Assembly (NCBI GenBank): GCA_028344855.1
Contig: JAOMCC010000003.1
Location: forward strand, 1 to 62,375
DNA: 62,375 nucleotides
Direction of reading: 5' to 3'
DNA from: Nitrosomonadales bacterium
GTDB taxonomy: Bacteria > Pseudomonadota > Gammaproteobacteria > Burkholderiales > Methylophilaceae
Numbering within the stretch: position 1 is the stretch's first letter; the number at the start of each line of letters is the position of its first letter. Both the position numbers and the translations under genes were made by a program. Positions 1,761 through 4,571 of the stretch are shown here, piece by piece. Below the pieces are notes generated by a model. The model saw nothing but the letters and a program-made list of their open reading frames with translations. It was not told where the DNA came from and made no database searches.

Positions 1761-2276
1761 TTATTTCTTTGTGTTTAATTGAAGAAGTTTATTTGTTATT
1801 AGGGCATTAACTAAGCCAAAAATAAATGCTGATATTAAAAAAATTGGTAAAAGATAGAAAATTCCATTATGAGGTATTATCCAAATTCTTACGACAATAA
1901 ACTGCCCGAATATATGAGCCAATGAAGCAATTAAGCTAAAAGTTATAAGGCTAAAATGCTTTCGATTTAAATTTTTAAAAATGCTTAGAAAAAACAGACT
2001 AAATAATGATCCACTCAGACTTAAGAAGAAGGTGGGACTTAGAAATGAACCAAGTATTATGCTTGTTACAAATACTCTAATAAGAGATACCCAGACTCCC
2101 ATGTTGAAATCAAATTTAAAAATAGTATATAAAATTATAATATTTGCTATGCCTGGTTTAACGCCAGGTATTGGACTTGGAAAGAAAAATTCGATAAGCG
2201 ATAATGCAATAGCAATAGCAGATAATTTTGCAATCTGATGATCCCTATCTGAAATATTAATAGTTGACAGAGTCAT
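1761..2276 (-). CDS. Gx transporter family membrane protein (EetB-like; often annotated heptaprenyl diphosphate synthase component I)
   Basis: Integral membrane protein of 171 aa with about five hydrophobic segments. It carries the family signature FFPSPIPGVKPGIANI near residues 31-46 and the later GSLFSLFFLS segment. Databases often call this family heptaprenyl diphosphate synthase component I, but it is all-membrane and does not look like a prenyl synthase. From memory, relatives are EetB of Gram-positive extracellular electron transfer loci. Its start overlaps the end of the NusG_II gene by 20 bases and that gene overlaps apbE, so the three are probably translated together. Function is inferred: a membrane part of an extracytosolic flavin or quinone redox system. 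An ECF-type small-molecule transporter is the alternative. Confidence 0.75.
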   Translation of the reverse strand: MTLSTINISDRDHQIAKLSAIAIALSLIEFFFPSPIPGVKPGIANIIILYTIFKFDFNMGVWVSLIRVFVTSIILGSFLSPTFFLSLSGSLFSLFFLSIFKNLNRKHFSLITFSLIASLAHIFGQFIVVRIWIIPHNGIFYLLPIFLISAFIFGLVNALITNKLLQLNTKK

Positions 2277-2646
2277 ATTTCTTTTCTTTTCCTACAATGG
2301 AAATAGATATTTTATTTGGAATACAAATAATTGTTTGATTAGCCTTATTTATCCAGGCTTGATGGATACAATATTTTTTTGAGCAAGGAGAAGATGAAAA
2401 TCTAGCTCGTCCATCATTGATAATTATTTCTGTTGTACCTTTTGAACCATCAATTTTTTTTGAAATTTTTTGGTTAAGAGTATAGGTAGTTAATAGTTTA
2501 TTATTTTTGTAGATTTCAAGATATTCACCTTGTGGAAGATTCCAAAAAAACCCTATACTTACTATAACAAGTATACAAAATAAACTAATCAGTAAGCAAT
2601 CACCTGGCTTAACTACTTTCAATAATTGTAATATTTTTTTTATCAA
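2257..2646 (-). CDS. NusG domain II-containing membrane-anchored protein (EetA-like)
   Basis: Protein of 129 aa with one N-terminal membrane segment (about residues 18-37) and a periplasmic domain. The domain ends in the typical NusG_II pattern SSPCSKKYC, then HQAWINKANQ, then IICIPNKISI. Three conserved-looking cysteines (C-x4-C and a later C) sit in this part and could form a disulfide or bind a cofactor; that is inference. It is not the transcription factor NusG. It overlaps apbE by 38 bases upstream and the Gx gene by 20 bases downstream. Proteins of this type accompany Gx_transp proteins and ApbE in flavin-based extracytosolic electron transfer loci, where EetA is the named example to my recollection. 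Confidence 0.75.
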   Translation of the reverse strand: MIKKILQLLKVVKPGDCLLISLFCILVIVSIGFFWNLPQGEYLEIYKNNKLLTTYTLNQKISKKIDGSKGTTEIIINDGRARFSSSPCSKKYCIHQAWINKANQTIICIPNKISISIVGKEKKYDSVNY

Positions 2647-3661
2647 TGGTCTCTTCCCAAATAATTTTGTCGTTCATGGATTTACTTATAAAAATTAAAT
2701 TATCATTCATAATAATTATAAAATCATTTATGTTTAATGCTTTTGCAACAGCCATTTTATTTTTTTTATTTGCAATAAAAAGTGGTTTTGAAAAAACATC
2801 AGATTTTACACCTACATTTTCCGAAGGCGGAACTAAAACAGTAGCGGATTGTGAATTACTTGCTGGATAACCTGTTTTTGGATCTATAAGGTGGGAATAT
2901 CTTACATTATCTATTATTATATATCTTTGATAATCACCAGATGTTCCGATAGCCCAACCAGGTTTTAAGTCAATTGTAGCAATCACATTTGGTTTTCTAG
3001 GATGTTGAATTCCAACCTTCCAGTATTTCTCACCATTTTTTCCAAAAGCTAAAATATTTCCGCCAATATTAATCAGTGCATTTTTAATATCATTTTTATT
3101 CAGAATCTTTTTTGCTTGATCTAAGGCATAACCTTTTGCATAGCCACCTAAATCTATTTGAACATTCTTCTTATTACTTTTTAGGATTTTGTCATTGATT
3201 TTTATTGAATTCATAGAAGGTTTTAATAAAACCAATCTTTCGATTTCTTCTTCTTTAGGAATAACCTCTTGATTAAAATCATTTGAATGAAACCCCCATA
3301 GTTTAATGAGTTTACCAATAGCTGGATTGAAATAGTTTTGAGTTTGAGTTTCAAGGTTTTTAGCATCTTTTATAATTGAAATAACTTCCTCATTATCGAT
3401 AGTAATATATTTGCCTTTAAATATTGCATCATTAATATCTGTGATTAAACTTTTTTCCCAAGGATGAAGAAGTTTGTGTAAGCGATGAAATTCATTAAAT
3501 ATCTCTCTGGAAGTTTTTTCAGCCTTAATTTTAGTCTCATTATAAATTTTGATGCCTATAATCGTTCCAAAAATATAATCTTCTTGCTGCTGAATTTTGT
3601 TGTCACTACAGCCGACAAAAAAGACCACTAGAAAATATACAAGAAGGTTATTTAAACGCAT
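2609..3661 (-). CDS. apbE: FAD:protein FMN transferase (ApbE family), lipoprotein
   Basis: The enzyme covalently attaches FMN from FAD to a Thr/Ser of exported or membrane redox proteins. I chose the ATG at 3661, inside the track ORF, because it gives a clean lipoprotein signal (MRLNNLLVYFLVVFFVGC) and overlaps the gshB stop by 14 bases; the product is 350 aa. Family motifs are DLGGYAKGYALD, INIGGNILAFG, AIGTSGDY and SHLIDPKTGYPA. In the usual metal-binding motif D-x-x-[SA]-T the aspartate is kept (about residue 288) but the Thr position is Lys (SDVFSKPLF). No FMN-acceptor protein is encoded beside it. Confidence 0.92.
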   Translation of the reverse strand: MRLNNLLVYFLVVFFVGCSDNKIQQQEDYIFGTIIGIKIYNETKIKAEKTSREIFNEFHRLHKLLHPWEKSLITDINDAIFKGKYITIDNEEVISIIKDAKNLETQTQNYFNPAIGKLIKLWGFHSNDFNQEVIPKEEEIERLVLLKPSMNSIKINDKILKSNKKNVQIDLGGYAKGYALDQAKKILNKNDIKNALINIGGNILAFGKNGEKYWKVGIQHPRKPNVIATIDLKPGWAIGTSGDYQRYIIIDNVRYSHLIDPKTGYPASNSQSATVLVPPSENVGVKSDVFSKPLFIANKKNKMAVAKALNINDFIIIMNDNLIFISKSMNDKIIWEETIDKKNITIIESS

Positions 3662-4571
3662 TAATAATAAATTCTGCTGTTTTAAAATTTGTTTGCTCTT
3701 CAATTTCGACAATTCCTGTAGGACTTGTAATATTAATTTCAGTTAAAAAATTACCAATAATATCTAATCCAACAAAATTTAGTTGATTCTCAATTAAATA
3801 TTTTTTTATCTTTTGAACTATTTTTTTATCTATAGAGGTCAATTTTTGTGCTTTTCCGTTACCACCTTTTGCTAAGTTAGCCCTTATTTCACCTTTAGAT
3901 GGAATTCTTACAAGTGAATATGGAATAGCCTTTCCTTTAATAACAATGATTCGTTTATCTCCATTTTTAATTTCAGGGATATATTTTTGAATCATAACTA
4001 CTGTTGAATTATTGTTTGTCGAAGTTTCTAAAATAACATTAATATTTTTATCTTGAGGGGTTAAGAAAAAAATTCCATTGCCTGCCATATCGTCAAGAGG
4101 TTTTAAAATTACTTTCCCTTGTTTTTTTATAAAATGAATTATTTCTTTAGATTTAGCTGAAATAATTGTGGGTGGAATAAGAGATTTAAATTGAAGTATC
4201 GATAATTTCTCATTCTGATTACGAATCGCAGTAGGATTATTGATAATTTCTACATTTAAATTTCTCGTGCGTTCAAGAATAAAAGTCAGATTTAGATAAT
4301 TTTTATCAAAAGGAGGATCCTTCCTAATATAAATTTTTGTAAAATATTGAATTTTATTTTTTGCATTATTTTTTTTTATTATTGATGAATCAATTGCAGA
4401 TATTTTATAAGAATCAACGATTATATTACTGTTTGTATCAATGGATATAGAATGTATTTCTGAGTAATGAACTTCAATGTTTTGTTTAAGACATTCTTTC
4501 ATTAAAGCTATTGAAGTATCTTTATAAAAAGATAGTTTATTTGGGTTATCAATTATAAATAAACATTTCAT
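3648..4571 (-). CDS. gshB: Glutathione synthetase
   Basis: ATP-grasp ligase (307 aa) joining gamma-glutamylcysteine and glycine to give glutathione in the cytoplasm. It has the usual GshB layout: an N-terminal domain with KDPPFD near residue 85, NNPTAIRNQNEKL, an ATP-grasp core with KPLDDMAGNGIF, the IVIKGKAIPYSLVRIP strand, and ANLAKGGNGKA. NFVGLDIIGNFLTEINITSPTG near the C-terminus holds the metal and substrate residues. It lies 6 bases after gshA on the same strand, so both glutathione steps are co-transcribed. In methylotrophs glutathione may also take part in formaldehyde handling; the window does not show that directly. Confidence 0.95.
   Translation of the reverse strand: MKCLFIIDNPNKLSFYKDTSIALMKECLKQNIEVHYSEIHSISIDTNSNIIVDSYKISAIDSSIIKKNNAKNKIQYFTKIYIRKDPPFDKNYLNLTFILERTRNLNVEIINNPTAIRNQNEKLSILQFKSLIPPTIISAKSKEIIHFIKKQGKVILKPLDDMAGNGIFFLTPQDKNINVILETSTNNNSTVVMIQKYIPEIKNGDKRIIVIKGKAIPYSLVRIPSKGEIRANLAKGGNGKAQKLTSIDKKIVQKIKKYLIENQLNFVGLDIIGNFLTEINITSPTGIVEIEEQTNFKTAEFIINAFK

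Follow-up and report, generated by a model that had tools for sequence, protein, structure and literature searches.

A likely FAD-export and flavinylation unit in Methylophilaceae, with an unlinked EcfT-like candidate partner in relatives

What is the function of three overlapping genes that encode an FMN transferase, a NusG domain II protein and a small membrane protein in a Gram-negative bacterium? The locus lies in 62,375 nucleotides of a very small marine methylotroph, a Nitrosomonadales bacterium of the Methylophilaceae (contig JAOMCC010000003.1), the whole of which is here called the window, and the assembly to which the window belongs measures 815 kb and is rated 61% complete. The closest named relatives are the Methylophilaceae isolates AH-578-O07 and AH-229-A22; more distant is the marine strain HTCC2181, which has been assigned to the OM43 lineage (PMC6794327). 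All three genes are on the minus strand: apbE (2609..3661, ATG start at 3661) encodes a periplasmic lipoprotein FAD:protein FMN transferase of 350 aa; nusG_II (2257..2646, TTG start), which is eetA-like, encodes a single membrane anchor and NusG domain II in 129 aa; and gx (1761..2276, ATG start), which is eetB-like, encodes a 171-aa membrane protein that is of the ECF S-component type by its structure model and a putative FAD exporter subunit. The original prediction had described an overlapping ApbE, NusG_II and Gx_transp trio and proposed profile searches for each member, and both the arrangement and the three matches were confirmed. The overlaps are 38 bases for apbE/nusG_II and 20 bases for nusG_II/gx, and scores were well above curated cut-offs for PF02424 (232 bits, E 9e-69), PF07009 (94 bits, E 6e-27) and PF07456 (133 bits against a cut-off of 30, E 8e-39), indicating that the matches are not due to chance. 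We conclude that the correspondence of NusG_II, Gx_transp and ApbE to EetA, EetB and ApbE holds.

The surroundings of the trio are not those of a Gram-positive-type extracellular electron transfer (EET) locus, as neither Ndh2 nor a flavinylated acceptor is encoded there and the neighbors are lipB, lipA, gshA, gshB and lysA. Upstream, gshB (3648-4571) and apbE share a 14-base overlap, which places the trio at the end of the lipB-lipA-gshA-gshB run. Downstream, a short lipoprotein-like open reading frame is followed by lysA. The open reading frame, located between gx and lysA at 1584-1730 on the minus strand, encodes 48 aa beginning MKIYYIFVLLTVSIFLNSCGTKGPLYFPEEK, and we take it to resemble the LptM-type small lipoproteins. 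No FMN riboswitch was found near the trio, and a scan for consensus promoters and terminators returned sites no more frequently than did shuffled sequence.

ApbE carries an N-terminal lipoprotein-type signal ending in VGC, retains the Asp of the DxxxT metal motif in addition to its PF02424 match, and aligns with solved FMN transferases, including 1vrm (E 8e-44) and 7esa (E 2e-29). Solved ApbE proteins have DxxxT where the ApbE clade has an SDVASK-type sequence, such that Thr is replaced by Lys in 22 of 22 aligned entries, which comprise the window (repeats included) and the relatives' loci L034-L063. Potential clients of ApbE are present in the same genome, where FMN attachment sites were found in two FMN_bind proteins. 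One is NqrC, whose gene belongs to an nqrBCDE run and whose attachment site reads DAIAGATLTS; NqrB, encoded beside NqrC, is probably a further client, and NQR has been described in HTCC2181 (PMC6794327). The other is a 177-aa periplasmic FMN_bind protein with an N-terminal signal and the site DGVSGATLS, the gene for which adjoins a Porin_O_P-type gene. The gene for this small exported protein has the Porin_O_P-type outer-membrane gene on one side and one for a pseudouridine synthase on the other, an arrangement conserved in the genus (L033:1450-3162 on the genome's own contig C8; L164:3284-5068 in G220). A search for exported flavinylation targets with the motif [ST]GA[ST]x[ST] had been proposed: targets do exist, unlinked to the trio, but the strict motif would miss the genome's own NqrC site. 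Among relatives, strong FMN_bind matches were RnfG in seven of the eight that are named and NqrC otherwise. The observation that no partner lies beside the trio thus stands for adjacent genes but not for the genome as a whole, as clients are encoded elsewhere, and a candidate ECF-T partner is encoded elsewhere in relatives.

The sequence of Gx found no match among PDB chains at E values up to 1, and its one link to solved structures is by fold. The predicted structure (pLDDT 88.9) has RibU as its best PDB neighbor, with ThiT also among the top neighbors (probability 1.00, TM about 0.6, E only 0.005 to 0.1 overall and 0.005 to 0.05 for riboflavin S-components), and the modeled Gx therefore has the fold of an ECF S-component, with modest E values. 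The Pfam name of PF07456 refers to a prenyl-diphosphate synthase, an assignment that we rejected since Gx has the S-component fold. No relatives of Gx or of the T-like protein described below were found on plasmids. In Listeria monocytogenes, EetB, for which PF07456 was the search profile, is an ECF S-component. It pulls down FAD, and the export of FAD for ApbE (FmnB) depends on it, as it also does on the T unit, FmnA, and on the ATPases, EcfA/EcfA′ (PMC9973259). Moreover, a clean deletion of eetA in Listeria caused no electron-transfer defect, and EetB cannot replace RibU for uptake (PMC9973259). A survey in the same study counted 2,169 genomes in which eetB is co-localized with apbE and 3,328 in which it is co-localized with eetA, most commonly with Rnf and EET systems (PMC9973259). 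The Listeria data on EetB and eetA point to the trio as a cofactor-delivery unit for NQR/RNF rather than an electron path. We infer the substrate of Gx, its direction of transport and its energy source here.

The protein encoded between ApbE and Gx may be an accessory of the latter. NusG_II has the predicted C-x4-C and third Cys, as C88-x4-C93 and C108; all 64 sequences compared have C93 and C108, and C88 is Cys in only 55% of them. Matches were obtained to 4esn (E 5e-8) and to 3ld7/2kpp, Lin0431 (E 0.0035). NusG_II and Gx (PF07009 beside PF07456) were found together in the loci examined, and of the 31 loci from across the order in which the overlap of their genes was measured, 26 show exactly 20 bases. 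NusG_II would be an accessory whose gene overlaps that of Gx, one that might serve in periplasmic hand-over or docking.

Co-inheritance connects Gx to flavinylation. The trio co-occurs across relatives, as had been anticipated: Gx was detected in 92 of 120 Methylophilaceae genomes, in 89 of which ApbE is encoded directly upstream of Gx, 471 to 932 bases away on the same strand. Within the family (n=120), Gx and an RnfG/NqrC-type FMN_bind protein were both present in 89 genomes, both absent in 25 and discordant in six. At the level of the order (n=120), FMN_bind matches of at least 48 bits, a threshold chosen after the scores had been seen, occurred in 37 of 37 genomes with Gx, and six genomes (G010, G019, G040, G044, G066 and G110) had FMN_bind matches of at least 59 bits without Gx. 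Outside the family, apbE was not found beside gx within the fetched 3.4-kb loci, and rapZ and ubiX flank the NusG_II-Gx pair in 24 of 29 loci (L002-L031). The product of ubiX uses FMN. Two genomes of the same genus, G196 and G225, keep the order gshA-gshB-apbE-lysA, with NusG_II, Gx and the T-like protein absent; both retain apbE and a small FMN_bind protein, and thus another source of FAD for ApbE apparently exists there. A natural exception is G206 (one contig, 99% complete; L148), in which RnfG, ApbE and the T-like protein are present and neither NusG_II nor Gx follows apbE.

As export in Listeria needs a T unit, such a unit was sought in relatives with PF02361. The relatives' genomes encode a divergent EcfT-like protein of about 200 to 240 aa, unlinked to gx. 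In the loci fetched, the gene for this protein is flanked by fimV and truA; in the same genus, truA-trpF follows it directly. A sequence model built from ten T-like proteins (A1) found the protein in 88 of 120 family genomes, and the homolog in the congener G133, too divergent for Pfam, was identified by A1 and by position. The T-like protein and Gx were both present in 86 family genomes and both absent in 26, with six containing Gx only and two the T-like protein only; all six Gx-only genomes are less than 90% complete, and the window's own is among them. In that 61%-complete assembly the T-like gene was not found, and truA is also missing. Across the order (n=120), both were present in 35 genomes, neither in 80, and five were discordant. 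Co-inheritance gave p values of about 1e-18 and below, with kinship ignored, and the T-like protein is also co-inherited with RnfG/NqrC. The structure predicted for the T-like protein (pLDDT 91.9) resembles those of solved EcfT chains (E 3e-7, probability 1.00, TM 0.5 to 0.6), and the sequence profile aligns only to EcfT residues 28 to 177 of 265. R115 in TMH4 of EcfT contacts the S-component (PMC4820897), and the equivalent Arg is kept in 43 of 49 T-like sequences; on the S side, the two Ala of the AxxxA docking motif of Gx are kept in 58 and 55 of 59. What is new here is the finding, in relatives, of such a T-like gene unlinked to gx, placed upstream of truA and inherited along with Gx and RnfG/NqrC.

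One explanation for how export is powered is that Gx and the T-like protein form a conventional ATP-driven ECF exporter by recruiting an ABC ATPase that profiles missed, as EcfA/EcfA′ serve EetB in Listeria. Consistent with an ATP-driven exporter, every ECF exporter that has been tested depends on ATPases, as with EcfA/EcfA′ in Listeria (PMC9973259). Moreover, among the 12 ATPases found in the complete one-contig genome of G133, two DrrA/GldA-like ones have no certain role. Two Ala-Arg-Gly signatures, however, are the ATPase contact sites described for all T units (PMC3246461), and they are absent as a conserved pair from 49 of 49 T-like sequences, in five of which isolated XRX triplets occur. 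Furthermore, no ATPase in six relatives' genomes exceeded the ECF cut-off, and genomes with Gx had best scores similar to those of genomes that lack it. This cut-off was fitted to a single ECF ATPase family, such that the absence is not absolute. The 12 ATPases of G133 best resemble the Dpp/Opp, MsbA, MlaF, LptB, FtsE, DrrA/GldA, PstB, LolD and ModC families, several of them scoring below those families' own cut-offs. Recruitment of a hidden ATPase is therefore possible but, in our judgment, rather unlikely. The T-like protein and Gx do not make up a complete ECF transporter, as coupling motifs and ATPases are lacking, and our claim is that they work like an ECF exporter. The lack of coupling motifs together with the lack of a recognizable ECF ATPase argues that export is probably not ATP-driven, and the sequences suggest an ECF-type exporter that does without an ATPase and is drawn along by the consumption of FAD.

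A further alternative is that the T-like protein has nothing to do with Gx and just shares its distribution. The two genes are not side by side in the loci examined, and the T-like protein occurs without Gx in G206, G177, G036 and G064, and weakly in G093. The T-like protein, however, was not selected by correlation among many genes, and the near-perfect co-inheritance includes joint absences within three genera (g1, with G196 and G225; g95; and g98, with G139 and G166). The protein is also the sole PF02361 match in the genomes searched, and S-docking features are kept on both sides. We consider an unrelated T-like protein improbable.

Gx could also be an importer, salvaging riboflavin or FAD as RibU does. 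The fold neighbor RibU is an importer and sequence cannot tell direction, but the gene neighbor and co-inheritance partners of Gx are a periplasmic flavinylation enzyme and its clients, and EetB is no substitute for RibU in Listeria uptake; we give import little credence. The original prediction that NusG_II and Gx pass electrons to a periplasmic flavoprotein is not supported and very improbable, for although NusG_II carries a pair of invariant Cys, apbE adjoins the two genes, and EetA/EetB occur in EET loci, profiles found no heme, flavin or iron-sulfur domain in the trio, no dehydrogenase lies within or adjacent to it, and in Listeria EetB exports FAD and eetA is dispensable.

The trio is likely a FAD-export and flavinylation unit, with an EcfT-like partner in relatives that is probably motor-free. 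Gx, as an EetB-type S-component, would bind FAD and carry it across the inner membrane, in relatives probably in partnership with the EcfT-like scaffold, the unlinked gene for which precedes truA. Lipoprotein ApbE would split FAD and attach FMN to NqrC, probably to NqrB, and to the periplasmic FMN_bind protein, and the main client in most relatives would be RnfG of the RNF complex. As FAD is made in the cytosol and would be consumed outside by ApbE, the simplest inference would be that export runs downhill. More tentatively, and with slightly less than even confidence, we propose for the Burkholderiales an ECF-type exporter that has no ATPase. Its parts would be an EetB S-component, a NusG_II subunit whose gene overlaps that of the S-component, and an EcfT scaffold that lacks a motor; this set, inherited together with NQR/RNF, would let FAD pass downhill into the periplasm, with ApbE consumption pulling. 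For the supply of FAD to ApbE in NQR/RNF flavinylation in Gram-negative bacteria, Gx, NusG_II, the T-like protein and RnfG/NqrC are now named candidates, a co-inherited set present in culturable Methylotenera and HTCC2181. Should the T-like scaffold work without a motor, this would show that an ECF S-component can export without ATP, and what EcfT does as a scaffold could be told apart from what it does in coupling. We found no report of a Gram-negative EetB or of a motor-less ECF-T in the open-licence literature.

Comparison with known systems places the locus among three. With E. coli and other Gram-negatives that have ApbE and NQR/RNF clients, the family shares ApbE and the FMN_bind client families; the E. 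coli control genome has no PF07456 match, though ApbE and FMN_bind match, and FAD supply there must therefore differ. With the T units of ECF transporters (EcfT, BioN and CbiQ; PF02361), the T-like protein shares the fold, the TMH4 Arg equivalent and the position of the S-docking helices, but it lacks the two Ala-Arg-Gly signatures and is shorter (about 200 to 240 versus about 265 aa), and in the loci seen its gene is not accompanied by A or S genes. Unlike the L. monocytogenes EetB/FmnA/EcfA/EcfA′ exporter (PMC9973259), the system resides in a Gram-negative host, has NQR/RNF clients, no EET genes alongside and no recognizable EcfA, and its T-like gene in relatives is unlinked, shorter and without paired Arg motifs. 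Like that exporter, it combines a PF07456 S-component, a NusG_II partner gene (EetA) and ApbE (FmnB), a relative of the T unit co-occurs with it, and what it would provide is FAD for flavinylation.
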